Of a stretch of DNA of 64,000 bases, positions 25,773 through 42,057 are shown piece by piece (the stretch's first letter is position 1; the number at the start of each line of letters is the position of its first letter). The notes beneath the pieces were generated by a model that saw only the letters and a list, made by a program, of their open reading frames with translations, was not told the origin of the DNA and searched no databases. The position numbers and the translations under genes are program-made. Source of the stretch: an uncultured Alphaproteobacteria bacterium (GTDB taxonomy: Bacteria > Pseudomonadota > Alphaproteobacteria > HIMB59); NCBI GenBank assembly GCA_902575725.1, contig CACGSS010000002.1:62001-126000 (forward strand). The letters run 5' to 3'.

Positions 25773-26557
25773 GCTGCAGATACCTTATTAAGAGTTTGTT
25801 TTTCTAAAGACTGGATTTTTTTTTCATTCCAAAAGACTAACTCCAAGTTGCCTTTAAAGTCCTCAACCATTGCACTACAGCTATCTACCCAATCTCCTAG
25901 ATTATGATATGTCTTATCACCAATTTTTTTTATTTGGGGATGGTGAATATGACCACAAACAATTCCATCACAATTATTTTTTTTTATTCTCTCAAGACAT
26001 GCATTTTCAAAATTTTCAATATATCGTTGAGCATCTTTTACTCGTGTTTTTAAATATCCTGATAAAGACCAATACGAAAGACCAAGTTTTCTTCGACAGA
26101 AATTTAAAATATTATTAAACCAAACAGAGTAGTCATAAAGGACGGCACCTATCTTTGCTAACCATTTTGAATTTAGAACTATTCCATCAAATTCATGCCC
26201 ATGCATTAAGAGAAGTCTTTTATTGTTCGCTGTTGTATGAATTCTATTTTTTCGAACTTTAATGTTTGCAAATGAAAAACCACAATAATCTGAAAAAACT
26301 TCATCATGGTTTCCAGGTATATAATAGACTTTGGTACCTGAGCGTGCTTTTCGTAAAACTTTTTGTATGAAAGTATTAAAATCAGGATTCCAAAACCAAT
26401 TTTTTTTTAGACGCCATCCGTCTATGATATCTCCAAGTAAATAAAGATGATCACAATCATTATATTTTAAAAAGTGTAAGAGCTCCTTTACTTTTGAAGC
26501 ACGTATGCCAATATGAATGTCTGAAATGAATATGGATCGATGTTTTTTGATTTGCAT
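25769..26557 (-). CDS. plcP: PlcP-type phospholipase C (calcineurin-like metallophosphoesterase)
   Basis: Metallophosphoesterase of 262 aa with the binuclear metal motifs FISDIHIG, LLGDIIDGW, IPGNHDE, LMHGHEFDG and VCGHIHHP. The stretch YWSLSGYLKTRVKDAQRYI and overall layout match alphaproteobacterial PlcP, which removes phospholipid head groups during phosphate starvation; such proteins are often labelled UDP-2,3-diacylglucosamine hydrolase (LpxH). The overlapping agt gene and the Pho-box-like motif 45 bases upstream support PlcP over LpxH. Confidence 0.86.
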   Translation of the reverse strand: MQIKKHRSIFISDIHIGIRASKVKELLHFLKYNDCDHLYLLGDIIDGWRLKKNWFWNPDFNTFIQKVLRKARSGTKVYYIPGNHDEVFSDYCGFSFANIKVRKNRIHTTANNKRLLLMHGHEFDGIVLNSKWLAKIGAVLYDYSVWFNNILNFCRRKLGLSYWSLSGYLKTRVKDAQRYIENFENACLERIKKNNCDGIVCGHIHHPQIKKIGDKTYHNLGDWVDSCSAMVEDFKGNLELVFWNEKKIQSLEKQTLNKVSAA

Positions 26558-26584: not shown

Positions 26585-26618
26585 TTGATAGTATTGAGGA
26601 TTGTTAAAGTTTTATTAA
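26585..26618 (-). promoter_or_regulatory. Pho-box-like promoter of plcP-agt
   Basis: On the minus strand TTAATAAAACTTTAACA (26618-26602) is followed after 11 bases by TATCAA (26590-26585), and the plcP ATG lies about 27 bases further on. The 17-mer is identical at pstS and at the gene starting at 42007. It is a direct repeat (TTAATA / TTAACA, period 11), the spacing of PhoB sites. The box abuts the ATG of the divergent SET-domain gene. Confidence 0.72.
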
Positions 26619-27137
26619 ATGGGCTCTTCACAAAAGCTTTATATTAGAAAAAATTCTAAAATTCATGCATCTGGTCTTTTTGCAAAAGCTGATATCTGTG
26701 CTGGCACTAGAATCATTGAATATCGCGGGTTAAAGATAACTAAAGCTCAATCCGACAAGATTGCTGATGTTCACATAGAGGCAAACAAAAGGGCTAAAAC
26801 AGTCGGGTCTGTTTACATTTTTACACTGAATCAAAAATACGACATCAATGGAAAAGTAACATGGAATTTAGCAAAATATATTAATCATTCCTGCAACCCT
26901 AATTGTGAAACTGATATCATCAAAGGAAAAATATGGATTAGCGCAATTAAAGATATTAAGAAAGGCGAGGAGCTGTCCTACGACTATGGATATGACATGT
27001 TTTGTTTCGAGGATCACCCGTGTCGATGTGGGTCTCAAAACTGTATTGGATATATTGTCCGAAGCAATCTTAGATGGAGAGTTAAAAAAAGGTTAATTGA
27101 AAATAAAAAGTCAAGATTTAACAAAAACTTCACATAA
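26619..27137 (+). CDS. SET-domain protein lysine methyltransferase
   Basis: 172 aa with a full SET fold: KIHASGLFAKADICAGTRII at the N-terminus, KYINHSCNPNCET (the NHSCxPN SAM site), GEELSYDYGY (catalytic Tyr region) and a post-SET CRCGSQNC cysteine cluster. It methylates a protein lysine in related enzymes; the bacterial substrate is unknown. A basic tail follows (RWRVKKRLIENKKSRFNK). It faces plcP across a short shared promoter region. Such genes occur scattered in marine bacteria; codon use does not stand out by eye. Confidence 0.88.
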   Translation: MGSSQKLYIRKNSKIHASGLFAKADICAGTRIIEYRGLKITKAQSDKIADVHIEANKRAKTVGSVYIFTLNQKYDINGKVTWNLAKYINHSCNPNCETDIIKGKIWISAIKDIKKGEELSYDYGYDMFCFEDHPCRCGSQNCIGYIVRSNLRWRVKKRLIENKKSRFNKNFT

Positions 27138-27154
27138 GTAGTTAAACTTCAGAT

Positions 27155-27502
27155 ATGGATTTTAAAAATAAAAATATAGTAGATGCTTTTTGGTGTTCAA
27201 TTGGAGGCCTAAAAATTCTCCTTCAAGAAAAAGCAGCAAGAAGAGAGCTATTATTGTTTCCATTGTCTGCTCTATACATTGTAATTTTTCAACCAGCTCT
27301 TTTGTTCACACTTTGGCTAATAATTTTACCTTTGCTCATACTTAGTATTGAGGCTCTAAACACTGCAATAGAATATACCTGTGATAAAATTACTATGGAT
27401 AAGTCAAACAAAATAAAAAAAGCTAAAGATTTGGGCTCTGCTGCAATTTTTTTATCTCTAACAGCCTATGGAATAGTTTTAATCTTAGGTTTATTTAATT
27501 AA
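27155..27502 (+). CDS. dgkA: Diacylglycerol kinase
   Basis: Small trimeric integral membrane kinase that phosphorylates diacylglycerol to phosphatidic acid. The 115 aa begin with an amphipathic segment (AFWCSIGGLKILLQEKAARRE), then three membrane helices; the active-site motif LSIEALNTAIEYTCD is the DgkA signature. Seventeen bases after the SET gene. Next to plcP-agt it may return diacylglycerol released by PlcP to phospholipid synthesis when phosphate is restored (inference). Confidence 0.92.
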   Translation: MDFKNKNIVDAFWCSIGGLKILLQEKAARRELLLFPLSALYIVIFQPALLFTLWLIILPLLILSIEALNTAIEYTCDKITMDKSNKIKKAKDLGSAAIFLSLTAYGIVLILGLFN

Positions 27503-27506
27503 TTTG

Positions 27507-27578
27507 GGAAGATTGACATGATTTTTCTACAAGTAGAGGAGGTCTATGTTTCAGTCACAGGGGAAATGCCAATCTTCC
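27507..27578. ncRNA. Unidentified structured element, possible small RNA
   Basis: GGAAGATTG (27507-27515) pairs perfectly with CAATCTTCC (27570-27578). The helix continues inward as CAT/ATG after one A-C mismatch. Inside lies TCTA-CAAG-TAGA (27526-27537) and a further possible TGT/ACA pairing, giving a multi-branched shape. It is between convergent dgkA and arsC, so it is not a leader of either. No known riboswitch or RNA class was recognised and there is no clear T-run on either strand. Confidence 0.4.
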
Positions 27579-27618
27579 ACCTAATAAAATAATCATTTAT
27601 ATTAAATTAAAGTTAAAT

Positions 27619-28089
27619 TTAGATTAAATTTCCAATTTCTTTTATTTGATCGATATTTAATAAGTTGTTTTGCTTATAATTTTGAACTAGTGCAAGACAT
27701 CTTTTTTTAAGAACATTGAATACTTTTAAAAATTCTATCTCAGCTTCCTCTTCAGTGCCTTTAAATTTTGCAGGATCAGCTACACCCCAATGTGCCTTTA
27801 ATGTATTTTTGAGATACACGGGGCAAGTTTCTCCAGCTGCATTATCACACACAGTAATAACCAAATCAAAATTAATATCTGAAAAATCATCCCATGATTG
27901 ACTTTTAAAATTGTCTAGGAAAATTTTATTTTTTTCTAATGTTTTGATACTTAATGGATGTACATATCCTGCAGGGTGGCTTCCTGCACTATAAGCATTA
28001 AAAAAGTCTTTACCATAATGGTTTAAAAGCCCCTCTGTCATAATTGATCGACAAGAGTTACCTGTACAAAGTACAAGAATTTTAATCAT
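27619..28089 (-). CDS. arsC: Arsenate reductase, thioredoxin-coupled LMW-phosphatase type
   Basis: 156 aa with the P-loop CTGNSCRS at the N-terminus (nucleophile Cys and Arg), the second and third redox cysteines in VCDNAAGETCP, and HWGVADPAKF, all typical of the thioredoxin-dependent ArsC fold. Reduces arsenate to arsenite. It is the last gene of pstSCAB-phoU-phoB, one base after phoB; arsenate enters through the Pst transporter under phosphate stress, which explains the linkage. No arsenite exporter is in the window. A protein tyrosine phosphatase role is less likely given the extra cysteines. Confidence 0.87.
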   Translation of the reverse strand: MIKILVLCTGNSCRSIMTEGLLNHYGKDFFNAYSAGSHPAGYVHPLSIKTLEKNKIFLDNFKSQSWDDFSDINFDLVITVCDNAAGETCPVYLKNTLKAHWGVADPAKFKGTEEEAEIEFLKVFNVLKKRCLALVQNYKQNNLLNIDQIKEIGNLI

Positions 28090-28090
28090 T

Positions 28091-28780
28091 TTAATTTTCT
28101 GAGTCGATAGAGTAGCCAGCGGATCTAACTGTTCGAATGAAATCTTTTTCTCCTGTTAAATTCAGCTCTTTTCTGAGTCTTCTTATGTGAACATCAACTG
28201 TTCTGGGTTCAACGTAAGCGTCATTTAACCAAACATTATCCAATAGTTGCTGCCTAGAATAGACTCTACCTTTATTTTCAATAAAAAATTTTAAAAGATT
28301 AAATTCAGTCGGTCCTAAATTTAACTTTCTCTCACCCCTTGTTACCCTTCTGTTGGTAAGATTAATGTTAATATCATGAAACTTGAGTGAGTCGTTCTCT
28401 TCTCTTGATTTTGTTCTTTTAAGTAATGATTTAATTCTAGCGAGAATCTCACTTGGAAGAAAAGGTTTGGTTACATAATCCTCTACACCTAATTCAAAAC
28501 CTCTAATTTTATCATCCTCTTGACCTTTAGCTGTTAACATTATAATTGGAATTTTTTTTAAATTATCTTTTCTTTTAATTCTCTTTAAAACTTCAATGCC
28601 CGATATATTTGGCAGCATCCAATCTAATAAAATTAAGTCAGGCAGCCAATGTTCGATCTCTTGAATAGCAGATTCTCCGTCGTATGAAAATTTTATTTGG
28701 TAGTTTTGTTGTTCTAAATGAAATCCAATTAATTCTGAAATTGGTTTTTCATCCTCTACAACTAAAATCTTGTCTGTCAT
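28091..28780 (-). CDS. phoB: Phosphate regulon response regulator PhoB
   Basis: OmpR-family regulator of 229 aa. The receiver domain has the phosphoacceptor Asp in LILLDWMLPNISG and the conserved Lys in DYVTKPF; the C-terminal winged helix contains LGPTEFNLLKFFIENKGRVYSRQQLLD and VDVHIRRLRKEL. Paired with PhoR (histidine kinase), located on the far side of the pst genes. It should bind the Pho-box-like motifs described in this window. Overlaps phoU by 4 bases. Confidence 0.95.
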   Translation of the reverse strand: MTDKILVVEDEKPISELIGFHLEQQNYQIKFSYDGESAIQEIEHWLPDLILLDWMLPNISGIEVLKRIKRKDNLKKIPIIMLTAKGQEDDKIRGFELGVEDYVTKPFLPSEILARIKSLLKRTKSREENDSLKFHDININLTNRRVTRGERKLNLGPTEFNLLKFFIENKGRVYSRQQLLDNVWLNDAYVEPRTVDVHIRRLRKELNLTGEKDFIRTVRSAGYSIDSEN

Positions 28781-29460
28781 TCAAAATCAGATTTTTTTAA
28801 ATCAATATAATGACCTGTAATGTTAAAAATGACCTCTTCAGCTATGTTAGTAGCATGATCACCTATTCTTTCTAAGGACTTTGCAATTAAAATTGGCTTA
28901 GTGCCTTCATCAACAACACTTGTTTCTTTATTGTGCATTCTTTCTATTAAATCAGATAATAAAGATTTGTACTGCCTGTCAATTTCTGCATCTTGATTCC
29001 ATGAGATCCTTGCCTGTACCTCATCTTTTTTAAAAAAACTCTCAAGTGTTTGATTAACCATTTTTTGGACACCTTTACCTAAATTATGCATTTGGTCCGT
29101 TAAATCCTCGTCAAATGAAGAAGAAATTGAAATAGCTCTTTTTGCTAAATTTCTAGAGTGATCTCCCATTCTCTCAAGCTCTTTTGAAACTTTGAGGGCA
29201 GTGAAAACTAGTCTTAAATCACTGGCAACGGGTCTATGTAAAGTCATAATTTCGAAACTTAAATCCCTAACATCTCTTTCCACTTCATCAACTTGTTCAT
29301 CAAGATTCTGTGTTGTCTGTGCATCAGATGAGTCTTTAGATTTAATAACATTTACTGCAATTTCAATTTGTTTCTCAACAATATTACTCATTTTAATTAA
29401 ATTATCTGTAAGATGATTTAACTTTTGTTCAAAGTTTTTATCTGTGTGTGCTGTTTCCAT
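28777..29460 (-). CDS. phoU: Phosphate transport system regulator PhoU
   Basis: Cytoplasmic three-helix-bundle protein that links the Pst transporter to PhoR and represses the regulon when phosphate is plentiful. The 227 aa hold two PhoU repeats (RDLSFEIMTLHRPVASDLRL ... SKELERMGDHSRNLAKRA; SLERIGDHATNIAEEV), each with the E-x-x-GDH metal motif. I use the ATG 9 bases into the open frame; a TTG precedes it. Between pstB and phoB, the usual order. Confidence 0.94.
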   Translation of the reverse strand: METAHTDKNFEQKLNHLTDNLIKMSNIVEKQIEIAVNVIKSKDSSDAQTTQNLDEQVDEVERDVRDLSFEIMTLHRPVASDLRLVFTALKVSKELERMGDHSRNLAKRAISISSSFDEDLTDQMHNLGKGVQKMVNQTLESFFKKDEVQARISWNQDAEIDRQYKSLLSDLIERMHNKETSVVDEGTKPILIAKSLERIGDHATNIAEEVIFNITGHYIDLKKSDFE

Positions 29461-29461
29461 T

Positions 29462-30238
29462 TTAACCAAACCTTCCAGTTATGTAGTCATTTGTTTGTTC
29501 TTTATCAGGTTTTGTAAATATCTTACCAGTTTCTCCATATTCGACAAGGTTACCTAAATGAAAAAACGCAGTTTTAGATGATACTCGTGATGCTTGAGAC
29601 ATAGAATGAGTTACTATAATAATTGTGTAATTTTCTTTCAATTCGTTAATTAAATCTTCTATTTTTGCGGTTGCTATTGGATCTAATGCAGAACAAGGTT
29701 CGTCCATCAAAATGATTTCCGGTCTTATAGCAATCGCTCTTGCAATGCACAATCTTTGCTGTTGTCCTCCTGATAAACCGGTAGCAATATCATCCATTCT
29801 ATCTTTTACCTCTTCATAAAGACCCGCTCTGTGAAGTGAGTCTTTTACTATTTCATCTAATTCATTTTGAGAAGAAGCAATACCATGAATTTTTGGTCCG
29901 TAGGCAACATTTTCATAAATAGTTTTTGGAAAAGGATTGGGTTTTTGAAAAACCATTCCAACTTTTTCGCGAAGAGTTTCTACCTGTATATCAGGGCTAT
30001 ATATATCAACATTGCCATTCAACAAAAACTTACCTTTAACATTACAAATATCTATTACATCATTCATACGGTTTAAACATCGCAAAAATGTCGACTTACC
30101 ACAACCTGAGGGTCCTATAAGAGAAGTTACTTCATTTTTTGGAAAATTAAGAGCAACGTTATTGATTGCCATTTTTTTTCCATAGTGGACATATACCTCA
30201 CTTGTTTGCAAAGCATAATTGCTGTTTTGATCTACCAT
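29462..30238 (-). CDS. pstB: Phosphate ABC transporter ATP-binding protein
   Basis: ATPase of the high-affinity PstSCAB phosphate importer. The 258 aa include Walker [22 protein letters not shown]-loop [21 protein letters not shown] signature [14 protein letters not shown], Walker [13 protein letters not shown] and the H-loop His in [16 protein letters not shown] and FQKPNPFP are PstB-specific. Overlaps pstA by 7 bases. Confidence 0.96.
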
Positions 30239-31482
30239 TTCACCTCCAATTTTCTTCTTACCAACACTGCCACAGTATTCATTATAATCAAAAAAGATAA
30301 AAGTAGCATTATTCCTGCAGATGTTTTTTCGAGGAAACCTCTTTCAGCGCTCTCAGACCATAGATATATTTGTGAAGGAAGACCAGTGGCAGGGTCGAAT
30401 GCCCCTCCCGGTATTTCCATCACAAAAGCAACCATACCTATCAATAATAAAGGGGCCGTCTCACCCAAAGCTTGTGCCATTCCAATAATTGTTCCAGTAA
30501 GAGTACCTGGCAAAGATAAAGGGATTACATGATGAAATACAGTTTGCATTTTAGTAGCCCCCACAGCAAGTGCTCCCTCTCTAATTGAAGGGGGGACGCC
30601 TCTGAGCGATGCCCTAGATGCTATAATAATTGTTGGTAAAGTCATAAAACCTAAAACTAATCCTCCAACTAAAGGGACTTGATATGGCATCCCAAAAACT
30701 CCAATTAGCATACCTAAGCCTAAAAGTCCGTAAACAATAGAGGGAACCGCCGCAAGGTTATTTATATTTACTTCAATAATGTCAGTTATTTTTCCTGGTT
30801 TAACAAATTCCTCTAAGTACACAGAAGCCAAAAGTCCGATTGGAAAAGCAAAACTAAAACAGATCAATAAAGCATAAAAAGACCCCATAAGTGCTCCAAG
30901 TATTCCGGCTGTTTCTGGATCTCTTGAGTCTCCATTTGTGAAAAACCAAAAATTGAATGTCTTAGACATTTTACCTTTGGAGTCTAAAGAGTCTAAGATA
31001 GAAAGTTGATAATCATTTATTTTTCGTTGTGCTTCGGGAACATTTCTTGGATAGTTTCCTTTGACAATTTGGTCAAGATCTGATGAGGCAGATATATCTA
31101 AATTGACAGTTTTTCCAATTACATTTGGATTGTTTGCAATATAATCTCTCAGCTGATAATCAAATTTTCTTGTGTACATTTCTCTGACTTTAATAAAATT
31201 TTCTTCATCTAATCCAGGATGGTTTTGGTTAATCACTTGATCAGCAAGATCAACATAAGATGCTTTCATTATTTCTTTTTTGGAGGAGTTACTAGAAACC
31301 TCTATAAAATTTGGGTCAAAATAAACATCAGCATTAATAGTTGTTCTAACAAAAGCACCACTGCCGGTAGAAAAAATTTTATACATTAAAATAAGCACGA
31401 AGAACAAAGAGAGAGTCATCGCAAACATTCCATAAAATTTGAAACGTTTCTCTGCTGCAAGTCTCTTTTCTAAACTACTCAT
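30232..31482 (-). CDS. pstA: Phosphate ABC transporter permease PstA (long form)
   Basis: Inner-membrane permease of the Pst importer, 416 aa, longer than the roughly 300 aa E. coli protein because of a periplasmic insertion of about 140 residues after the first membrane helix (from [15 protein letters not shown] on). The C-terminal permease core shows [28 protein letters not shown], the EAA loop contacting PstB. This long form is seen in other alphaproteobacteria. Overlaps pstC by 8 bases. Confidence 0.94.
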
Positions 31483-32911
31483 ATTTTTCTCTGTACTTTT
31501 TTACTATTGTTATAGCAGCAATATTAAGAATTAATGTCATTACAAATAAAGTTAGGCCTAAAGCAAAAGCAACTAAGGTTTTTGGATTATCAAACTCGAC
31601 ATCTCCTATCAAACTTGTAACAATCTGTGTTGTTATTGTAGTCGCTGGCTCCAAGGGATTAAAAGTAAGATTTGCTCTTAGGCTGGCGGCCATAACGACA
31701 ATCATTGTCTCACCTATTGCCCTAGATATAGCTAATAAAAATGAGCCCATTATTCCAGCTAGAGCTGCTGGTAAAATTACTTTTTTAATAGTTTCTGATT
31801 TAGTTGCTCCAATTGCATAAGAACCCTCTCTTAAAGATTGAGGAACTGCTTTTATGACATCGTCACTAAGAGAGGAAACAAAAGGGATGATCATGACACC
31901 CATAGCTAAACCTGCAGCTAGAGCACTTTCAGCGGACACCGGTAATCCAACACCTTCACCGACATCTTTTATGAAAGGCGCCAGTGATAAAGCAGCAAAA
32001 AATCCATAAACAACTGTGGGTATGCCAGCAAGAATTTCAATTATTGGTTTAGCTATATCTCTTACTTTTGATGACGCATACTCTGCTAAATAAATTGCTG
32101 TTAGCAGTCCTAAAGGAACAGCGACTAACATGGCAACAGATGCAATTAAAAGCGTTCCGGTAAGCAAAGGTACAAAACCAAAAGCCTCTTTTAAAGCCTC
32201 TTGATCGAAGCCTTCTGATGCATTGATAACAAAAGCTCTATTGGGATTCCATGCCGTATTAAAGAAAAAGTCCATAAAATTTACGTACCGAAAAAAATTA
32301 ATGGCCTCGAAAACAAGAGAAAAGAAGATTCCAAAAGTAATGAATATTGCAATATAAGAACTGCCCTTGATAACATATGAAATTATTTTCTCAACAATTG
32401 GCTGTGCATTTAGTTTTCCTGATATTGATTTCGTAGCCAAAAATCCTAAAAGCACAGGTAGAATAATAAATAGAGTTAAATTCGACCATCCGTAGATCTT
32501 GTCAAAATTTGCTAAATTTTTTGCTGCAATTATCTCACTCTCACTGGCCATTTTTAAAATTGATTTATCGCCTACGGTCAAATCAATTTCTGATAAATTA
32601 ACAATCATAGATAGGTTGCTAATCTTATTCATAACTAAACCGAATTTTCCAGAGCTCCATGTAGCGACATCTGGAAATAACACAGGGGACATTACAAACA
32701 TCTCTTGAAAGTTTGATTTAAAAATAAGTAAAAAGAACCAAATAATTATTGCTGGAAAAAAAACTAAAAGTACAACGTAATATCCATAATAATCTGGAAG
32801 AGAGGAAAGATTTTCATTTTTTTTAAATTTTAGGCTTAATGCTCTTTTTTTACCATAGAAGTAAAAAGAATAAGAAAGTATAAAAACTAAAACAAGTGAT
32901 AAATAAAGCAT
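31475..32911 (-). CDS. pstC: Phosphate ABC transporter permease PstC (long form)
   Basis: Partner permease of PstA, 478 aa. It has an extra N-terminal membrane helix, a basic KKRALSLKFKK segment and a periplasmic loop of about 70 residues ahead of the permease core. The core carries the EAA loop SLREGSYAIGATKSETIKKVILPAALAG. An AGAGGA-type ribosome-binding site lies upstream of the ATG. It follows pstS after an 80-base gap containing a strong hairpin. Confidence 0.94.
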   Translation of the reverse strand: MLYLSLVLVFILSYSFYFYGKKRALSLKFKKNENLSSLPDYYGYYVVLLVFFPAIIIWFFLLIFKSNFQEMFVMSPVLFPDVATWSSGKFGLVMNKISNLSMIVNLSEIDLTVGDKSILKMASESEIIAAKNLANFDKIYGWSNLTLFIILPVLLGFLATKSISGKLNAQPIVEKIISYVIKGSSYIAIFITFGIFFSLVFEAINFFRYVNFMDFFFNTAWNPNRAFVINASEGFDQEALKEAFGFVPLLTGTLLIASVAMLVAVPLGLLTAIYLAEYASSKVRDIAKPIIEILAGIPTVVYGFFAALSLAPFIKDVGEGVGLPVSAESALAAGLAMGVMIIPFVSSLSDDVIKAVPQSLREGSYAIGATKSETIKKVILPAALAGIMGSFLLAISRAIGETMIVVMAASLRANLTFNPLEPATTITTQIVTSLIGDVEFDNPKTLVAFALGLTLFVMTLILNIAAITIVKKYREKYE

Positions 32912-32943
32912 ACTGTCCTATTCCTCTATAAACTGAATTTGTC

Positions 32944-32969
32944 TTAGGGGCAAGAAATCTTGCCCCTAA
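32944..32969. other. Perfect 11-bp hairpin between pstS and pstC
   Basis: TTAGGGGCAAG (32944-32954) pairs perfectly with CTTGCCCCTAA (32959-32969) around a 4-base loop. There is no T-run after it on the minus strand, so it is not a full terminator. Such stems after a binding-protein gene commonly protect the upstream mRNA, giving more PstS than PstCAB; that role is inferred here. Confidence 0.75.
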
Positions 32970-32991
32970 AAATAAGATAATTAATTAATGC

Positions 32992-34068
32992 TTACTTACA
33001 AAGTCCGCTTGAAAAAGCGTAACCAGCATCTTTTAATGGGTGTTTTGCTTCAGCACATGCTGCAATATCAAATCCCATTGCATCTAAGTTGTCAGTAACG
33101 TTTCTTACTCTATTGATAAGGTCTGGTACCATAGGTGCAGCACCAATTTTTGTTAGGTAACCGTTATCACCAATTGCTTCATCACTTACCATCATTTGTG
33201 CAAACTCCTGAATGCCAGGTACAACCCCGATGTGATCTGCTTTTAAGTATATGAAAAGAGGTCTTGCCATTGGATACTCATAAGTGGCAATGGATTCAGC
33301 AGATGGTATTACTCCCTCAACAGTAGATGGTTGTAATTTATCTCCGTTGTCTTTTAGATAGGAATAACCAAAGTAACCAAAACGTTCTGGATCCTCAACT
33401 AGTTTTTGAACAATAAGAGTGTCATTCTCACCCATCTCGATGATTTTTCCATCTTCTCTGTAATCAGTACATCCATCGTCACTGCCAGTTACTGCTTCTA
33501 ATGTACATCCAGCTTCCATTACTTTACCATCAAATGCATCTCTTGTTCCTGAGGTTGGAGGAGCTACTAATACTTCAATTTTATATGCTGGAAGGCTTGG
33601 GTTAATTTCGTTCCAAGTTTGATATGGATTTTCGACCACTTCACCATCAACAACAACTTTTGCAGCCATAGCTGTAAAAATTTCTTCTCTTGTTAGAGAA
33701 AAAGGTTCTGCTTCATTGGAGTGAGAAAAAGTAATACCGTCATTAGCCCACATCACTTCAATAACGTTTGTTACACCGGCTTCAAGACATAATTTAGCTT
33801 CTTTAGATTTCATTGGTCGTGACGCTCCAGTAATATCTGGAAATTCAACTCCCACACCAGCACAAAATGCTTTCATTCCACCACCAGTTCCAATTGGGTT
33901 GTAAGTGGGGGTTTTAAAACCTGACTCGCCGAGTCTTTGTGCGTTTACTGTTCCATATGGGTATACTGTTGATGAGCCAACAATATTGATTTGATCTCTT
34001 GCAAAAGTTTCAGCAGAGAAAAGCACGCTTACTGCTAAAGCAAGAAAAGTTAACATAGATTTTTTCAT
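32992..34068 (-). CDS. pstS: Phosphate-binding periplasmic protein PstS
   Basis: Substrate-binding protein of the high-affinity phosphate transporter. A signal peptide (MKKSMLTFLALAVSVLFSAETFA) is followed by INIVGSSTVYPYGTVNAQRL and, further on, ITGASRPMKSKE and PPTSGTRDAFDGK, which together form the phosphate-binding site; 358 aa. AAAGGAA lies upstream of the ATG at suitable spacing. It heads the pstSCAB-phoU-phoB-arsC operon and has a Pho-box-like promoter. Confidence 0.96.
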   Translation of the reverse strand: MKKSMLTFLALAVSVLFSAETFARDQINIVGSSTVYPYGTVNAQRLGESGFKTPTYNPIGTGGGMKAFCAGVGVEFPDITGASRPMKSKEAKLCLEAGVTNVIEVMWANDGITFSHSNEAEPFSLTREEIFTAMAAKVVVDGEVVENPYQTWNEINPSLPAYKIEVLVAPPTSGTRDAFDGKVMEAGCTLEAVTGSDDGCTDYREDGKIIEMGENDTLIVQKLVEDPERFGYFGYSYLKDNGDKLQPSTVEGVIPSAESIATYEYPMARPLFIYLKADHIGVVPGIQEFAQMMVSDEAIGDNGYLTKIGAAPMVPDLINRVRNVTDNLDAMGFDIAACAEAKHPLKDAGYAFSSGLCK

Positions 34069-34122
34069 AGTTAAGTTCCTTTATGTTGTTTAAATTGAGC
34101 TAAAAATATCCGTTAGAAATAA

Positions 34123-34156
34123 ATCTTATGTTACAAATATGTTAAAGTTTTATTAA
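34123..34156 (-). promoter_or_regulatory. Pho-box-like promoter of pstS
   Basis: Minus-strand TTAATAAAACTTTAACA (34156-34140) is followed after 11 bases by TAAGAT (34128-34123), giving a leader of about 50 bases before the pstS ATG. The repeat unit continues once more at the same 11-base period (TGTAACA), so the site may hold three PhoB half-sites. The first bases overlap the phoR stop codon. Confidence 0.78.
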
Positions 34157-35418
34157 GCATGCTTTGGAATTGTGATTAAAAACTCTGAGCCTTTTCCAAC
34201 TTCACTTTTTATGTCAATAAAACCCATGTTTTTATTCAAAATATGTTTCACAATTGAAAGGCCTAATCCAGTACCACCAACCTCTTTGGATCGCGCACTG
34301 TCCACTCTGTAAAATCTCTCGGTAAGCCTTGAGATGTGCTCTTCTGCAATGCCTATGCCATTATCTTTGAAGGAAATTTCGACATATTCAGTCATAGTAC
34401 TGGTATTCATTTTTTCACGAGCATTAATAAAAATTTTAGCACCATCTTTTGAATATTTAACAGCGTTGTTAACGATATTGACAACCACTTGAATAAATTC
34501 TTCATGAGGGCATCCGACTAAAAGAGATTGGTCTAAATTAATATCAACATTTATGTTTTTCTTTAAAATTTTTGATTCCAAAGATTTTATTCCAATTTTA
34601 ACAGTATTTAATAAATTACAAAATTGGTCATTCTCATTAGTTTTCTTATTCTCGATGGAACTTAAACTTAATAGATCATCAATCAAAGAGTTCATTCGAT
34701 TTGACTGATCTTGAATAATTGAAATAAATTTTTTTCTATTTTTTTCATCGTCAACAGTTAAAAGTGTTTCTAAATAACCTATTATTGAAGAGAGAGGAGT
34801 TTTTAATTCGTGACTGACATTAGCTACGAAGTCAGTTCTTACCATCTCAAGATTTTTAATTGCAGAAATGTCTTTAAAAGCAACGCAAAAAAAATCATTA
34901 ATAGGAAATCCTATAACGTCGTAATATCGGTCATTTGGTATTAATCTATTCCACTCAAAATTCTTTTTTGATTTACTTTTAAGTGCGCTACTTAGATTTT
35001 CAGACAAAGATAAATCTCTTAAACCTATTTTAAGATTATCTGCATTTTCTAAATTAAATGTCTCTTTGAAAGTATTGTTAACGAATATGATATTATAATC
35101 ATAATCAATAATAACTATTGAGAGATCTAAGGAATTAAGAATATCTTGATATTCCAAACTTTGCTTATCATTTATCTCGATGCGTCTTTCTTTGTCTAAA
35201 AGAGTCTCTTCTAAAATATTTCGGACTTTTGTAAATAACATATTGTCAGATTTTCTTAGGTTAAAAGTTTTTTTTTCAAGATAGTTTTCAAAGAAATAAT
35301 AAGAAATGAAATAAACTAAACTCTGCGAAATAAGTGATATTAAAAAAATATTAATTGAAGTACTAAAAAACAAAAATAAGTTTAATGAGAGAACAGCAAT
35401 AGAAAATACAAATAACAT
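34153..35418 (-). CDS. phoR: Phosphate regulon sensor histidine kinase PhoR
   Basis: Membrane-bound histidine kinase of 421 aa. Two N-terminal membrane helices, a PAS domain (LDLSIVIIDYDYNIIFVNNT), HisKA with the phospho-His in FVANVSHELKTPLSSIIGY near residue 205, and HATPase boxes NIVNNAVKYS, DNGIGI and GGTGLGLSI. Partner of PhoB. It is one base after ppk and upstream of pstS, so it is read from the sixA-ppk unit rather than from the pstS promoter. Confidence 0.94.
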   Translation of the reverse strand: MLFVFSIAVLSLNLFLFFSTSINIFLISLISQSLVYFISYYFFENYLEKKTFNLRKSDNMLFTKVRNILEETLLDKERRIEINDKQSLEYQDILNSLDLSIVIIDYDYNIIFVNNTFKETFNLENADNLKIGLRDLSLSENLSSALKSKSKKNFEWNRLIPNDRYYDVIGFPINDFFCVAFKDISAIKNLEMVRTDFVANVSHELKTPLSSIIGYLETLLTVDDEKNRKKFISIIQDQSNRMNSLIDDLLSLSSIENKKTNENDQFCNLLNTVKIGIKSLESKILKKNINVDINLDQSLLVGCPHEEFIQVVVNIVNNAVKYSKDGAKIFINAREKMNTSTMTEYVEISFKDNGIGIAEEHISRLTERFYRVDSARSKEVGGTGLGLSIVKHILNKNMGFIDIKSEVGKGSEFLITIPKHA

Positions 35419-35419
35419 T

Positions 35420-37504
35420 TTATTGTTTTTCTATTTTTTTATAGACCTTTTTGGCAGCAGTGCCTCTCCCTGAGAGACTAGGGTTAGTCATAAAATATTT
35501 ATGTGAGTCTATTTTTAGTTTAGAGTTTATTTTTTGATAATCTCCATCTGAGTCGAGCACCCAAGCATTTTGATTATCGTTAATGGCAGTGTACATAATT
35601 TGATATAAAATTTGTTCGTGAACAGTTTTGTTATCGATAGGAACTAATGTTTCCACGCGCCTGTCAAAATTTCTAGTCATCCAGTCAGCAGATGAAATAT
35701 AAATTTTTGCTTTTTTACTGGGTAGTTTATTGCCTTTTCCGAAACAAACTACACGTGAATGCTCTAAAAATCTTCCTACAATACTTTTAACTTCTATGTT
35801 TTCTGACATTCCTTTAACACCAGGAACTAAGCAGCAGATACCTCTAATTAAACAAGTAATTTTCACACCTGCTTGAGATGCTTCATAAAGTTTGTTAATT
35901 ATTTCTTGATCAACTAAATTATTCATCTTGATCCATATGTTAGCTGGCTTTTTAATTTTTGATAAACCTATTTCGTAGTCAATATTTTCGAAGAGTTTTT
36001 GTCTTAAGTTATATGGAGAGAAAGATATTCGTTTAAAATCTTTTGCCATGTTGTAACTACTCATATAATGAAATAATTTTATAGCATCAGATGCTAGATC
36101 TTTATTACAAGTAAAAAATGATAGATCTGTATAAACCTTTGCTGTTTGAGGATGATAGTTACCAGTACCATAGTGAACGTAATGGACTAAATTTTTTTTT
36201 TCTCTTCTAGTAACTAAGGAAACTTTTGCATGAATTTTTAGATTTAAAAAACCATACACTACTTGAACTCCAGCTTTTTCCAAATTTGATGCCCACTGTA
36301 GATTTTTTTCTTCATCAAACCTTGCTTTTAACTCAACAACTGCTGTTACAGATTTACCAGCATCAGCAGCACGAATGAGTGCATCAATGATTGGCGATTG
36401 ATCGCTAGTACGATACAAAGTTTGCTTAATTGCCACAACGTTTTTGTCGTTTGATGCTTGATCTAAAAAACTAACAACAACATTAAAAGACTCAAACGGG
36501 TGGTGTATAACTAAATCCTTTTTTTTGATTGCTGCAAAACAATCACCACCAAAATCATTTATTCGTTGTGGGAAACGAGGTTTAAATTTTTTATAATTTA
36601 AATTCTTGTTTTTTATATTTCCAAAGACTTCTGATAATTGGTCGAACCCCAGTAGATCTTCGTATTCAAAAATTTCATTTTCAGATACATTCAACTCGTT
36701 AATGATGAATGATTTAAAATTTTTATTAAGACTTTTTTGAACATCTAATCTGATTACCTGTCCTCTTTTTCTTTCCCTGACAAGTTTTTTAAACTCTCTG
36801 ATAAGATCGTCTGCCTCCTCCAAAACCTCTAAATCACTGTCCCTTATTACGCGAAATAGATTTGTATCAATAACATCAAAATCATGGAATACATCCCCAA
36901 CATAATTGTTAATTATTGACTCTACGGGATAAAAATAAATACCCTGTTTATCAATAATTTTAAGAAAGCGTTGTTTTAAATCTGATACTCTCATAACTGA
37001 GATAAATTCTTTTTTTGATTTTTTATTTTTAATTTTAGCGATAAGACACAAACTTAAATTTGGTATAAAGGGCAAAGGGTGTGTGCTATCAACTGTAATT
37101 GGTGTCAGAATCGAAATAATTTCATTCAAATAATAATTTTTTATGTGGGACAAATGTTTTTTTAAAAACTTATCTCTTAAAATATAGATTTTATTTTTTT
37201 TTAATTCTTTTTCAATTTGACCATACGATTCATTTTGCCTTTTAATCAAACCTCTTGTTAATGAGTCAACAATTTTAATTTGATCCTCAATCTTCATTCC
37301 ATCAAAACTTTTTTTATTAGGAGTGAGTTTTAACTGTTCAATTAATCCAGCCACTCTTACTGAAAAAAATTCATCTAAGTTTGATGCAGCAATACTTATA
37401 AAATTTAGTCGTTCTAAAATTGGGACGTTTTTATCATAGGATAATTCATTTACTCTCTCATTAAATTTTAGCCAGGATATTTCTCTATTAAAATACTTAT
37501 TCAT
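35420..37504 (-). CDS. ppk: Polyphosphate kinase 1
   Basis: Synthesises polyphosphate from ATP reversibly. The 694 aa have the PPK1 layout: N-terminal YFNREISWLKFNERVNELS, head domain, and two PLD-like C-terminal domains with the phosphorylated His in LNLKIHAKVSLV and the second His in GRFLEHSRVVCFG; also ELKARFDEEKNLQWA. It overlaps sixA by 8 bases and precedes phoR. Together with divergent ppx it gives both synthesis and breakdown of polyphosphate next to the Pst system. Confidence 0.96.
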   Translation of the reverse strand: MNKYFNREISWLKFNERVNELSYDKNVPILERLNFISIAASNLDEFFSVRVAGLIEQLKLTPNKKSFDGMKIEDQIKIVDSLTRGLIKRQNESYGQIEKELKKNKIYILRDKFLKKHLSHIKNYYLNEIISILTPITVDSTHPLPFIPNLSLCLIAKIKNKKSKKEFISVMRVSDLKQRFLKIIDKQGIYFYPVESIINNYVGDVFHDFDVIDTNLFRVIRDSDLEVLEEADDLIREFKKLVRERKRGQVIRLDVQKSLNKNFKSFIINELNVSENEIFEYEDLLGFDQLSEVFGNIKNKNLNYKKFKPRFPQRINDFGGDCFAAIKKKDLVIHHPFESFNVVVSFLDQASNDKNVVAIKQTLYRTSDQSPIIDALIRAADAGKSVTAVVELKARFDEEKNLQWASNLEKAGVQVVYGFLNLKIHAKVSLVTRREKKNLVHYVHYGTGNYHPQTAKVYTDLSFFTCNKDLASDAIKLFHYMSSYNMAKDFKRISFSPYNLRQKLFENIDYEIGLSKIKKPANIWIKMNNLVDQEIINKLYEASQAGVKITCLIRGICCLVPGVKGMSENIEVKSIVGRFLEHSRVVCFGKGNKLPSKKAKIYISSADWMTRNFDRRVETLVPIDNKTVHEQILYQIMYTAINDNQNAWVLDSDGDYQKINSKLKIDSHKYFMTNPSLSGRGTAAKKVYKKIEKQ

Positions 37505-38006
37505 TCTTGTAATAATAACTTTTAAGTCTTTTTACTAATTGTAGTTCTTTAATTTCACCAGTATTTTTATTTATCTCACTCCAGGAATTAATATATAGAT
37601 TAATCTCGCAAAATGCACATGTTGGAAATTTTATTATTTTATCTTTTGCAATATAGTTAATTAAATCAATCAAAGCTGGATTGTGACCTACTATCATTAA
37701 ATTTTTGTTAATTTTAATTTTTTTTATCCATTTAATTAAATCGTTAAAGTTGAAAGTATATAGTTCACTTTCAAAATTAACTTTAATTGAGTTTTTAAAT
37801 ATTTTTTTGCATGTCTCTTGTGTTCTTTTTGAATTCGATGAAAAAATTGAGATATCTTTAAAATTTAGTTTTTTAAAAATATGCGTTGCCATTACTTGGC
37901 AACTAAAAATCCCCCTCTCAGATAATGGTCTTTCATGATCGTCTAATTCTAAATTTTTCCAAGAGGATTTAGCGTGACGTAATAAAAATAGTTTTTTTTC
38001 AATCAT
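37497..38006 (-). CDS. sixA: SixA-like histidine phosphatase
   Basis: Histidine-phosphatase superfamily protein of 169 aa with the RHG-type motif LFLLRHAKSSW at the N-terminus and the second catalytic His in LMIVGHNPALIDL. SixA dephosphorylates phospho-His in some bacterial phosphorelay proteins; the substrate here is unknown. It shares an 11-base divergent gap with ppx, so any promoter must overlap coding sequence. TATATT ending six bases before its ATG suggests a leaderless mRNA. Confidence 0.85.
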   Translation of the reverse strand: MIEKKLFLLRHAKSSWKNLELDDHERPLSERGIFSCQVMATHIFKKLNFKDISIFSSNSKRTQETCKKIFKNSIKVNFESELYTFNFNDLIKWIKKIKINKNLMIVGHNPALIDLINYIAKDKIIKFPTCAFCEINLYINSWSEINKNTGEIKELQLVKRLKSYYYKNE

Positions 38007-38017
38007 CTGTTAAATAT

Positions 38018-39478
38018 ATGCAATATAATATGCTTAATAAAAAAGATTCTATTGCAGTAATAGATATAGGGTCAAATTCAGTAAGATTGTGTGTATTTAG
38101 GGGCAATATGAGAAGCCCTGATGTGCTCTATAATAAAAAATTTTTTTGTGGGTTAGGTGAATACCTTCCAAAAACAAAATTGATCAGCAAAGAAGCTGAA
38201 AAAAAATGTATCAACTCAATAATTTTTTTTAACTCAATAATTGAAGAAATAAAACCTAACCATTCTGTCGCTTTGTGTACTGCAGCAATTCGAAATGCTT
38301 CTAACAAAAAACAAATTACAAATAAGATACAAAAAGTTTTTAAGGGAAAAGTTTTAACTTTATCTGGAAGACAAGAGGCCTCCTATGCCACACTAGGTGT
38401 TCGTTCTGCAATACCTAGGGCCAATGGGACCATTATTGATATGGGAGGTGGTAGTCTTGAATTAGCACAAATAACACCACATAAAATTAAAAATATATCT
38501 TCTTTTCCTTTGGGTATATTAAACTTCACTAAAGAACATAAAGAGCATAAAAAAATTAACAAAGAAATAAATTCAAAACATAAAAATCAAAAAATCTTCT
38601 ATTTAATTGGTGGAGCATTTAGGACAATTGCAAGATGTTATATTTATTTTAATAAATTGCCCTTTAATGAAATACATAACTTGAGTATCTCTCGGAAAAA
38701 TTTTTATGAATTAAAATCAGAATTACAAAAAATTGAGATTGATGATCTACAAAAAATTCCGAAAATTTCTGTCGACAGAATAAAACATATTCATATTGCA
38801 ATAGAAGTATTGGACAAGGTGTTAAAATTATCAAACTGCGAGCAGTTTATTTATCCAAGATACGGGATTAGAGAGGGTTTCATTTACGAAAATCTTCCCA
38901 AAAAGCAAAGGCTTTTAGATCCAACTGAAATTTCTTTAGAATTAATAGCTAAAAGTAGATGTCGTTTTTTAATATTTAATAAAAAGACTTTTGCTTGGAT
39001 TAAAAATGTTTATTTAAAATTTATAAATTTAAAAATGTCCTCTAACCAGCTGAGAGTAATAAAACTCTCATGTATTATTTCAGATTTGGGATGGGAGCAA
39101 ACAGCCAAAATTAGAGCTTCTTATGCATTCAACCTAATATTAAATAGTCCTCTAGTAGGAATAGAACAATCAGAAAAAGTATTTATTGCATATTTAGTGT
39201 ATTTAAGGCACACGAAAAATATCTTAGACCAAAGGGTTATTGAAAAAGAATTAAGTACCTATTTATCTTATTTATCAAGTGACGAAAAAAAGTTAGCTTA
39301 TCAGATTGGGTGTGTATTAAATTTTTTATACTCTATAACTAAGGGTTCTTCTTTTTTATTAAAACAGCTTGATCTTAAATCTTTAACATTGGCAGAGCAA
39401 AAAAAGGTTTCGTCTATTCAAAAAGTACCAAAATCAGGCAAAACTGAACAGCTTTATAACCTAATTAGAAAATTTTAA
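38018..39478 (+). CDS. ppx: Exopolyphosphatase, Ppx/GppA family
   Basis: Removes terminal phosphate from polyphosphate (or pppGpp). ASKHA-type ATPase fold: AVIDIGSNSVRLCVF, the catalytic loop AAIRNASNKK, EASYATLGVRSAI and IIDMGGGSLELAQI, then a C-terminal all-helical HD-like part; 486 aa. Two starts are possible, this ATG and one four codons on; neither has a Shine-Dalgarno site. It is transcribed away from sixA-ppk-phoR. Confidence 0.93.
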   Translation: MQYNMLNKKDSIAVIDIGSNSVRLCVFRGNMRSPDVLYNKKFFCGLGEYLPKTKLISKEAEKKCINSIIFFNSIIEEIKPNHSVALCTAAIRNASNKKQITNKIQKVFKGKVLTLSGRQEASYATLGVRSAIPRANGTIIDMGGGSLELAQITPHKIKNISSFPLGILNFTKEHKEHKKINKEINSKHKNQKIFYLIGGAFRTIARCYIYFNKLPFNEIHNLSISRKNFYELKSELQKIEIDDLQKIPKISVDRIKHIHIAIEVLDKVLKLSNCEQFIYPRYGIREGFIYENLPKKQRLLDPTEISLELIAKSRCRFLIFNKKTFAWIKNVYLKFINLKMSSNQLRVIKLSCIISDLGWEQTAKIRASYAFNLILNSPLVGIEQSEKVFIAYLVYLRHTKNILDQRVIEKELSTYLSYLSSDEKKLAYQIGCVLNFLYSITKGSSFLLKQLDLKSLTLAEQKKVSSIQKVPKSGKTEQLYNLIRKF

Positions 39479-39531
39479 TATTAGATTAATATTTTTTTAA
39501 TTAAAATTACATAATCAATAAATCTAATATT
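39477..39531. repeat. Perfect 11-bp inverted repeat upstream of the phytase-like gene
   Basis: AATATTAGATT (39477-39487) and AATCTAATATT (39521-39531) are perfect inverted copies with a 33-base AT-rich interval. It overlaps the ppx stop. It could be an operator or a weak stem; no T-run follows. I see no convincing Pho box inside. Confidence 0.5.
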
Positions 39532-39554
39532 CTTTGGTATTTGGAGAAAAAATA

Positions 39555-41114
39555 ATGAAATTATTATTATCAATGCTTTTAAGCTTTGTTTTTTTCAATG
39601 TAAATGCATTGGAACTTAATAAAATCTCAGGCTATTCAACTTTTTCATGGGACGAAGGTGGATCAGAAATTTTAGCTTACGACTCTCAAAGAAACAGAAT
39701 ATTTGTAACAAACAATCTAACAAAATCTATAGATGTTTTAGATATTACAAGATTACCATATACAGAAAAATTAATTTCAATCAAACCAAGAGCAGGTGTT
39801 GGTGGAATAAACAGTGTTGCTGTTTCAGAACAAGCAGGTTTGCTTGCTTTAGCAATCGAGGCAGAAGACAAACAAGACAATGGTGCTGTTTTGTTCTATA
39901 ATCTTAATACATTAAAATTGGCTTTTGGGTACTCAGTAGGTGCGCTGCCTGATAATGTTGTATTTACTCCGGATGGGAAATATGCATTGGTCGCCAATGA
40001 GGGTGAGCCAAATGATGACTACACTGTTGATCCCAAAGGATCTGTTTCAATTATTGATTTAAACAAATGGTTTGTTGGCCCTAGTGAAGATAAAATCAGA
40101 AATATAAACTTTTATTACAATGGGGCTCCAGAGGGTGGCAGAATTGTAAAACCTGGATCATCTTTTTTGTATGATGCTGAACCAGAGTTTATAGCAGTTA
40201 GCGGTGACTCTAAAAGAGCTTATGTAGCTCTTCAAGAAAATAACGTTATTGCAAAGATAGATATTAGTTTGGGCATAGTTACTGATTACTTTGGTTTAGG
40301 CTATAAAGATTGGTCTCAGTCCGCTCTTGATGCTTCGAATAAGGATAACAGAGTTAATATACAGCCTTGGCCGGTTAAAGGAATGTATCAACCAGACACC
40401 ATGGTAGTTGTCAGTAAAGAGATTAATGGTGAAATGTATGATTATGTTTTAATGGCTAATGAGGGAGATGCAAAAGATTACGATGGATTCTCAGAAGAGG
40501 TAAGGGTCGCTGATTTAACTTTAGACCCTTCAGTCTTTCCTAATGCCTCAGAGCTACAAAAAAAATCAAATCTCGGTAGGTTAAAAACAACTACTACTAT
40601 GGGAGATGCTGATGGTGACGGTTTTTATGAAGAAATCTATACCTACGGTGGAAGATCTTTTTCAATTTTAGACGGTAATACCGGACAAATTATTTATGAT
40701 AGCGGTAATGATATTGCTGTTAGAACAGCGTTTTCAGGTTTTTTTAACTGGAATGAGGATGCGGGATCTTTTGATGACAGAAGTGACGATAAAGGTGCAG
40801 AGCCAGAGGCTCTTACAGTTGGAGAAATTGATGGAAGAACAATAGCTTTTGTAGGTCTTGAAAGACAGGGCGGTATCATGATGTACGATATTACTGGTAT
40901 GGTAAAACCAAAATTTCTTGGATATTTTAATGGTAGAAACTTTTTTGGAGATGGTACAAACCAAACTGGTGGTGACATATCTCCTGAATCATTAGTTTTT
41001 ATACCTGCCGACAAGACACCTCCACTTTATCATGTCAGAAAAGGAACTCCTTTATTGATTGGAGCCTATGAACTTTCGGGTTCAACTGCTATTTACGAAG
41101 TTATAATTGATTAG
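39555..41114 (+). CDS. Secreted phytase-like beta-propeller protein (choice-of-anchor I type)
   Basis: 519 aa with signal peptide MKLLLSMLLSFVFFNVNALE, then repeats typical of the choice-of-anchor I / esterase-like phytase family: NRIFVTNN, GYSVGALPDNVVFTPDGKYA, VANEGEPNDDYTVDPKGSVS, MANEGDAKDYDGFSEEVRV, GDADGDGFYEEIYTYGGRSF and PEALTVGEIDGRTIAFVGLE. Some relatives are labelled alkaline phosphatase, and its place behind ppx would suit extracellular phosphate scavenging, but catalytic activity is not shown by the sequence. The ATG chosen has GGAG eight bases upstream and starts the signal peptide. Confidence 0.8.
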   Translation: MKLLLSMLLSFVFFNVNALELNKISGYSTFSWDEGGSEILAYDSQRNRIFVTNNLTKSIDVLDITRLPYTEKLISIKPRAGVGGINSVAVSEQAGLLALAIEAEDKQDNGAVLFYNLNTLKLAFGYSVGALPDNVVFTPDGKYALVANEGEPNDDYTVDPKGSVSIIDLNKWFVGPSEDKIRNINFYYNGAPEGGRIVKPGSSFLYDAEPEFIAVSGDSKRAYVALQENNVIAKIDISLGIVTDYFGLGYKDWSQSALDASNKDNRVNIQPWPVKGMYQPDTMVVVSKEINGEMYDYVLMANEGDAKDYDGFSEEVRVADLTLDPSVFPNASELQKKSNLGRLKTTTTMGDADGDGFYEEIYTYGGRSFSILDGNTGQIIYDSGNDIAVRTAFSGFFNWNEDAGSFDDRSDDKGAEPEALTVGEIDGRTIAFVGLERQGGIMMYDITGMVKPKFLGYFNGRNFFGDGTNQTGGDISPESLVFIPADKTPPLYHVRKGTPLLIGAYELSGSTAIYEVIID

Positions 41115-41127
41115 TAATATTTATTTT

Positions 41128-41153
41128 ACCCTCTCTAAATTAATAGGGAGGGT
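41128..41153. terminator. Hairpin at a convergent gene junction
   Basis: ACCCTCTCTA pairs with TAGGGAGGGT (one G-U) around a 6-base loop, between the stop codons of two convergent genes. The following bases are only moderately T-rich on either strand, so it is a weak or factor-assisted bidirectional terminator. Confidence 0.5.
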
Positions 41154-42007
41154 TAGATTAAATAGCTTTTTCTAAACTTGTCATTAATAAGTGCAATAGC
41201 TTTTTTTCCATCCTCAAGTGAAATCTTATCTGGCGGACCCCAAGCAGTTTTATTGACATCAACAATGTAAATTTTTTTCGTATCCCTATCTCTTAAAATG
41301 TCTAACTCCCCAAAATCTAGTTTAAATTTTTTACAAAATTCATTTATTAAACTAATCTCTTCATTTTCAAATAAAGAACAAATTGAGACTATTTTTGAAT
41401 AAACAGTTTTAGATTTAAAGCGATATTCTTTTTGAGCAAATTTCACGTAAGCTAATACAATTTCATCTTTAACCCATACGACCCTATAATCGATAGCAAA
41501 TTCGTTATAAATATTATTAATTAATTTTTGGTAAACCTTATTTTTATAAATTTTAAATCCTAACGAAGAACTATTTATAATCTTCCCGTCATGTTTTGCA
41601 TTTTGCTCTGATTTTTCTAAAATTGAACCATGAAAGTTTTTTGGATCTAAGCTCAGAGAATAACCAAAAATCTCTAAGAAAACTTTATCAACATTAGATT
41701 TACTGATGTCAGTGCAATTTTTATTTATTACTATTTTTTTTGGATTTCCAGAGACTTGGTAGTTACTATTAGTTTTGTCATAAAAATATAATTCTATGTC
41801 AGCTAGTTCTGGGGAGGACGTAAACCTAACTGGCAAGCCCCATCTAACTTTAGCTAAAGTATAAAGTGGATTCAAAGGCCTTCTAGGGTAACAGATTATT
41901 TTTTTTTTATTTGATGAGGTAGATTCATATAAGCTAATCAAAAAATAAACATCTCTCAGCCCTCGAAGAATAGTACTAATTACGTCTGAAACAGTTATTG
42001 ATGACAT
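41153..42007 (-). CDS. Unknown protein with ATP-grasp-like C-terminus, putative Pho regulon member
   Basis: 284 aa, no signal peptide. I do not recognise the family firmly. The C-terminal part (FCKKFKLDFGELDILRDRDT, then IYIVDVNKTAWGPPDKIS) resembles the metal-binding end of ATP-grasp ligases, where Glu, Asp and Asn of an E-L-D ... D-V-N pattern bind Mg-ATP; the middle has regular beta strands (IDYRVVWVKDEIVLAYVKF). I place the start at MSSITVSDVIST because the identical Pho-box-like motif lies 34 bases upstream; the longer frame (ATG at 42040) would run into the promoter spacer. Substrate unknown. Confidence 0.6.
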   Translation of the reverse strand: MSSITVSDVISTILRGLRDVYFLISLYESTSSNKKKIICYPRRPLNPLYTLAKVRWGLPVRFTSSPELADIELYFYDKTNSNYQVSGNPKKIVINKNCTDISKSNVDKVFLEIFGYSLSLDPKNFHGSILEKSEQNAKHDGKIINSSSLGFKIYKNKVYQKLINNIYNEFAIDYRVVWVKDEIVLAYVKFAQKEYRFKSKTVYSKIVSICSLFENEEISLINEFCKKFKLDFGELDILRDRDTKKIYIVDVNKTAWGPPDKISLEDGKKAIALINDKFRKSYLI

Positions 42008-42023
42008 AAATTGATTCTTGAGA

Positions 42024-42057
42024 CCATTACATATATACAATGTTAAAGTTTTATTAA
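42024..42057 (-). promoter_or_regulatory. Pho-box-like promoter of the unknown ATP-grasp-like gene
   Basis: Minus-strand TTAATAAAACTTTAACA (42057-42041), identical to the plcP and pstS copies, followed after 11 bases by TAATGG; TGTAAT two bases earlier is an alternative -10. The gene start used here is about 17 bases further on. The first base of the box is also the A of the divergent glnD ATG. Confidence 0.65.

Follow-up and report, generated by a model that had tools for sequence, protein, structure and literature searches.

The locus raises the question of why one 17-base sequence, TTAATAAAACTTTAACA, stands in three exact copies in the window, by which we mean the whole 64,000-nucleotide stretch of DNA analyzed here. 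The initial annotation had placed these copies before plcP-agt, pstS and an unnamed gene (hereafter gene X) and had taken them as the mark of a putative PhoB regulon, and indeed we found exactly three, all on the minus strand, at 26602-26618, 34140-34156 and 42041-42057. Judged from the sequence, the 17-mer very likely forms the central part of a Pho box through which PhoB would regulate the units of a phosphate island. The genes and sites at the three promoters are as follows.

24780..25772, minus strand: agt-like GT4 glycosyltransferase gene (Pfam), adjoining plcP as described in PMC4796936
25769..26557, minus strand: putative plcP, metallophosphoesterase gene (Pfam Metallophos)
26602..26620, minus strand: predicted Pho box of plcP-agt, ATTTAATA-AAA-CTTTAACA, overlapping the start codon, at 26619 on the plus strand, of a divergently oriented SET-domain gene
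29462..34068, minus strand: pstS-pstC-pstA-pstB, followed by phoU and phoB (gene order compared with relatives)
34129..34158, minus strand: predicted three-half-site Pho box before pstS, GCTTAATA-AAA-CTTTAACA-TAT-TTGTAACA, overlapping the phoR stop codon
41153..42007, minus strand: gene X, predicted ATP-grasp enzyme, with its ATG at 42007
42041..42059, minus strand: predicted Pho box before gene X, CATTAATA-AAA-CTTTAACA (13/14), overlapping the likely glnD start

The three copies might be products of chance, or coding repeats, in AT-rich DNA. Matches to the 17-mer with up to three mismatches lie at or near the background rate (8 in the window vs 3.62 expected, a count that 3 of 100 shuffles reached), so that the exact copies are the outstanding signal, and the exact 17-mers of three sister-family genomes sit within a 714-aa ORF. 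A search of the 52 genomes of the genus, however, returned 63 exact copies, distributed over 30 genomes, vs none for the reversed control, and all 63 are placed before orthologues of plcP, pstS or gene X (assigned by hand, 57 of them via a protein match at the right distance downstream and the other six, in G066, G067, G074 and G075, from the spacing to pstS or phoB). G001, the nearest genome compared (1.1 Mb, 79% complete, 59% of sampled 31-mers in common with the window), also has exactly three exact 17-mers, in the same synteny. Moreover, the linkers inside the sites vary while the half-sites stay, and we consider chance or coding repeats an extremely improbable origin.

The initial annotation had described a direct repeat of TTAATA and TTAACA with an 11-base period, as in Escherichia coli; the period was right, and the register needs correction. 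The sites are better described as tandem direct 8-bp half-sites, nT[GT]T[AC]A[TC]A, with 3-bp linkers and hence the 11-bp period of a Pho box, and each half-site starts two bases ahead of the earlier TTAAYA. The pstS promoters of relatives read CTGTCATA-AAA-CTTTAACA-TTA-ATTTAATA (G016, G014) and TTGTCATA-AAA-CTTTAACA-TTT-CTTTAATA (G062), and those of distant pstS orthologues carry [CT]TGTCATAAAACTTTAACA, with E. coli-like TGTCATA half-sites, from which it follows that TTAAYA corresponds to positions 3-8 of the half-site equivalent to CTGTCATA. Scored on this consensus against 40 simulated sequences, the window exceeds expectation in perfect pairs (2 vs 0.275) and in triple sites of at least 19/21 (3 vs 0.3), and it is unremarkable in pairs at the looser threshold of 13/14 (12 vs 7.8 expected). 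One of the triples is that of pstS, where the suspected third half-site is present and the whole site matches 20/21 consensus positions. Another, a 30-base site at 27600-27629, was set aside, as it falls at the end of a low-molecular-weight phosphatase gene and no gene start lies close behind it on its strand.

Conservation upstream of plcP and pstS orthologues, as the initial annotation expected, was found for both genes in the genus and, in the sister family, for pstS and not for the pst-linked plcP. The plcP box scores 14/14 in all 13 genus loci scored. The pst-linked plcP copy of the sister family (48-49% identity) has no box in any of 12 rows (best at most 12/14), and in 4 of 5 rows a second copy (50-52% identity) is preceded by a 13/14 site, 37-38 bp from its start; the plcP box thus characterizes the genus and may extend to a single paralogue beyond it. 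Two plcP-agt copies were seen in the sister family (L151, L198, L202, L206). The putative name PlcP for 25769..26557 comes from the context with agt; LpxH models matched the protein far under their curated cut-offs (53.7 bits vs 134 and 43.5 vs 190.35). Most of the phosphate islands examined, even those lacking phoB, retain the SET-domain gene (26619-27137) at their border, and in the genus its short upstream region is shared with the plcP box.

The proposed reader of the boxes and its partner are encoded in the same island.

28091..28780, minus strand: phoB, proposed box binder (TIGR02154 equivalog, 311.7 bits vs cut-off 296.2)
34153..35418, minus strand: phoR-like sensor kinase gene (Pfam HisKA, HATPase_c, PAS)

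A cognate PhoB is therefore present by the TIGR02154 cut-off, and the kinase scores 292.9 bits with TIGR02966, under the cut-off of 334.2. All 11 loci read encode one and the same PhoB recognition helix, RT[VI]DVHIRRLRK, which also occurs in the solved domain of E. coli PhoB, and the sequences suggest an operator that would have drifted toward AT while the PhoB helix stayed unchanged.

We found pstS in 104 of the 162 genomes of the order and scored 38 upstream regions, picked to span the lineages and to include genomes without phoB (phoB called genome-wide, E <= 1e-50); the phoB-less island of G035, which begins inside pstS, was left out of scoring. All 27 upstream regions from phoB-bearing genomes reach 13/14. 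The three genomes with an intact pst and no phoR-phoB (G072, G013, G022; 66-81% complete) have no box (0/3, best 11; shuffle p 0.69 for G072 and 0.89 for G013), and they represent two lineages, since G013 and G022 are nearly identical. The distant pstS of G159 scores 10. Where phoB was not found and the contig stops, or is rearranged, short of the expected phoB position (G011, G136, G149, G086, G100, G127, G069), six of seven regions reach 13, with G100 at 12. G011 keeps the kinase tail and the box, and G013, with nearly the same leader, has neither. As the box overlaps the phoR stop codon, loss of phoR removes the box, so that its absence is consistent with PhoB binding and is not independent proof of it. 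On one contig of G011 (L176, G011:C4), pstS and a piece of pstC adjoin trpS, and this contig is rearranged or chimeric. The boxes of plcP, gene X, pstS and dgk (see below) likewise overlap start or stop codons of neighboring genes, and their conservation may be partly coding.

The initial annotation had placed -10 hexamers 11 bases after the motif. At plcP and gene X this overshoots by 2-3 bases, since their orthologues have TATAAT-like hexamers 8-9 bases after the box; at plcP the hexamers at 11 are not conserved.

26588..26593, minus strand: TACTAT, likely -10 element of plcP, 8 bases after the box
42026..42031, minus strand: TGTAAT, likely -10 element of gene X, 9 bases after the box

All six plcP rows have such a hexamer at a spacing of 8-9 (TACTAT, TACGAT, TATAAT, TATACT, TATAAT, TATTAT); in the window promoter itself TACTAT and the earlier TATCAA tie at 4/6, and the choice of TACTAT rests on the orthologues. 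The three gene X rows read TGTAAT, TCTAAT and TCTAAT, each at spacing 9. Ten pstS rows examined gave no consistent -10, and dgk has a weak one only.

TTAACA resembles a -35 hexamer. The sites might accordingly belong to another OmpR-family regulator or an unrelated one, or be a shared promoter element with TTAATA or TTAACA as its -35, and a first look at the genomes did give several additional PhoB-like candidates in each. Nevertheless, the sites have two or three half-sites repeated every 11 bp at phosphate genes, relatives carry the E. coli-like TGTCATA form, pstS is without a box where phoR and phoB are missing, and the hexamers lie 8-10 bases from the last half-site, not about 17. We regard such a regulator or element as highly unlikely and retain PhoB as the very likely binder.

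In addition to the three promoters, two boxes were found on the plus strand of the window.

27116..27134, plus strand: predicted Pho box before dgk, ATTTAACA-AAA-ACTTCACA, 13/14, overlapping the SET stop codon
27155..27502, plus strand: dgk, diacylglycerol kinase gene (Pfam DAGK_prokar)
39473..39502, plus strand: predicted Pho box of the choice-of-anchor I gene, three half-sites, 19/21
39555..41114, plus strand: choice-of-anchor I protein gene (NF038117, 487.8 bits vs cut-off 300)

The earlier statement that the motif is always on the minus strand thus applies to the exact 17-mer and fails for these conserved variants. The dgk box scores 13-14/14 both in the window and at every one of the 10 loci examined, of which six are close relatives, and starts 39 bp before dgk or, with a gene between, about 488 bp. 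In G031 that gene encodes 141 aa (L144:3796-4221) and is absent from the window; L142, L146 and L180 have the same long gap and look like G031, in which an aquaporin-type (MIP) gene follows dgk. Half-sites 1 and 2 of the choice-of-anchor I box are kept in G010 and G027 while its linker is changed, and all four rows of this promoter have TAAAAT at spacing 10.

Relatives place the box before further modules. G031 has a site upstream of the aminoethylphosphonate-binding gene phnS2 (TIGR03261, 523 bits), in an island with phosphonoacetate hydrolase and, by eye, a Pit-like transporter, and G062 (L270:2659-4710) has a perfect box and TATAAT at spacing 8 before a family-5 solute-binding ABC transporter gene. 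The latter transporter, which lies between a phosphonate transporter and phoR, might take up an organic phosphorus compound. The core of the PhoB regulon first proposed, with pstS, plcP-agt and one unnamed gene, is well supported by conservation within the genus, by PhoB, by the half-sites in relatives and by the absence of the box without phoR-phoB, and the predicted regulon was drawn too small.

When ORFs with a site of at least 13/14 within 150 bp upstream were counted in real and reversed control sequences, the numbers were 28 of 173 vs 2 in the pst islands of the genus, 20 of 98 vs 0 in those of the sister family, and 8 of 62 vs 0 in the phn (C-P lyase) islands of the genus; many of the rows are homologous, hence not independent, and L180 and L270 overlap by 1.5 kb. 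There was no enrichment in the phn (C-P lyase) islands of the sister family (10 of 180 vs 12), in phoB-less islands (0 of 54 vs 0) or in the window alone (5 of 63 vs 4). The C-P lyase islands, examined at 12 loci as a test outside the pst islands, gave a mixed picture: at the phnG promoter, G018 and G010 have a 13/14 site and G030 has none. All three genus loci (L274-L276) have a 13/14 site 20 bp ahead of the start of a 295-aa gene, and seven of the nine sister-family loci (L277-L285) have a 13-14 site 22 bp ahead of the start of a 300-304-aa gene.

Degenerate patterns failed to recover the regulon genome-wide. TKTMAYA-N4-TKTMAYA was not enriched (65 vs 68 in 8 genomes), the three phoB-less genomes having as many matches as the others, and TTAAYA-N5-TTAACA, the pattern proposed by the initial annotation, gave 133 matches vs 102 in the reversed control in 37 genus genomes and 76 vs 135 in 23 sister-family genomes. 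Degenerate forms are thus spread at about the background rate, and within the genus it is the exact 17-mer that keeps to the three promoters. Of 12 matches examined away from pst islands, eight are inside ORFs (six in ORFs of 678 or 714 aa) and four outside (L156, L262, L264 near 8331, L266), that of L262 directly before a 108-aa ORF; two of the off-island matches in L271, L272 and L273 are inside ORFs and one outside.

Gene X is predicted to encode an enzyme of the ATP-grasp fold, and no Pfam or NCBIfam family matched it at E 0.001. In its orthologues of 66-67% protein identity the linker differs, and the half-sites are retained. Homologues were examined at nine loci in other alphaproteobacteria, and among 10 neighboring proteins scanned from five of these, a metallo-beta-lactamase-fold gene occurs at 5/5 loci and a PLP-dependent decarboxylase/aminotransferase gene at 4/5; the loci (L253-L258) show a conserved, uncharacterized neighborhood around the ATP-grasp family. 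No box was found upstream in the eight of nine loci scored outside HIMB59 (best 11/14), so that neither neighbors nor upstream regions give a phosphate link from context. In the relative G031, the slot beside glnD has the Pit-like transporter and phosphonate genes. A less likely possibility is that gene X, controlled by a Pho box of its own, is a new phosphate-starvation enzyme from a so far unnamed family of ATP-grasp ligases (or kinases), perhaps ligating an amino acid to a lipid or envelope component and so sparing phosphorus. PhoB might instead act at pstS and plcP alone, with gene X unregulated and its site kept by the likely overlap with the start codon of glnD; moreover, boxes without an obvious phosphate response have been reported (PMC4415409). 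This seems unlikely to us, as G010 and G027 keep the half-sites and a -10-like hexamer while the linker changes.

With gene X retained as a probable member of the regulon of the Pho box, PhoB binding, activation and phosphate dependence would run as follows. Under phosphate shortage, PhoB would be phosphorylated by PhoR and would then bind head-to-tail to 8-bp half-sites every 11 bp and recruit RNA polymerase to the -10 located 8-10 bases downstream. The boxes would then switch on separate units, namely pstSCAB-phoU-phoB, plcP-agt (phospholipid to glycolipid) and gene X, very likely also dgk and the choice-of-anchor I gene, and in relatives the same box would act before the 2-aminoethylphosphonate transporter and family-5 solute-binding ABC transporter modules. 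The operator consensus suggests that several island modules bear their own boxes, predicts phosphate-stress responders, one uncharacterized enzyme among them, and offers a possible case of an operator that drifted toward AT while the helix reading it stayed the same.

Previous studies have described HIMB59 bacteria as cosmopolitan in the surface ocean, with flexible phosphate islands (fGIp) that vary with phosphate supply and are presented via gene content (PMC10734472). The window island resembles fGIp in gene set and position, its plcP and agt are probably the genes named LpxH and RfaG there, and the choice-of-anchor I gene is probably the one named alkaline phosphatase; the main text of that paper does not contain "Pho box", "promoter" or "motif". 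A text search covering the main texts of mostly open-access papers returned no paper with HIMB59 and "Pho box". The order plcP then agt has been reported for SAR11 and other marine bacteria, whose plcP clusters contain putative Pho boxes (PMC4796936, whose main text does not name HIMB59), and in a comparison of gene arrangement the window matches this SAR11-type lipid remodelling operon in plcP-agt order and predicted box.

The box of HIMB59 (AEGEAN-169) is very probably a fresh instance of an already known type of switch, useful as a regulon map. The Pho box has been described as a series of 8-bp repeats, separated by 3-bp linkers and located 10 bp ahead of the -10 (PMC1906773), and the E. 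coli motif is named as CTGTCAT (PMC4415409). The window sites share with the E. coli box the 8-bp half-sites and the 3-bp linkers and, at plcP, gene X and the choice-of-anchor I gene, a position 8-10 bp upstream of a likely -10 (PMC1906773, PMC4415409), as well as an identical PhoB recognition helix and, in relatives, retained TGTCATA half-sites. They differ in that CTGTCATA has become roughly [CT]TTTAA[CT]A: relative to CTGTCAT, T2, T4 and A6 are kept, G3 and C5 are replaced by T and A, and the full TGTCATA occurs only in relatives. The cyanobacterial SphR Pho box, with CTTAACCT repeats, has a similar AT-rich TTAAC core, 8-bp repeats, 3-bp linkers and at least three repeats (PMC1906773), whereas its regulator lineage and consensus are different, the regulator here being a proteobacterial PhoB.
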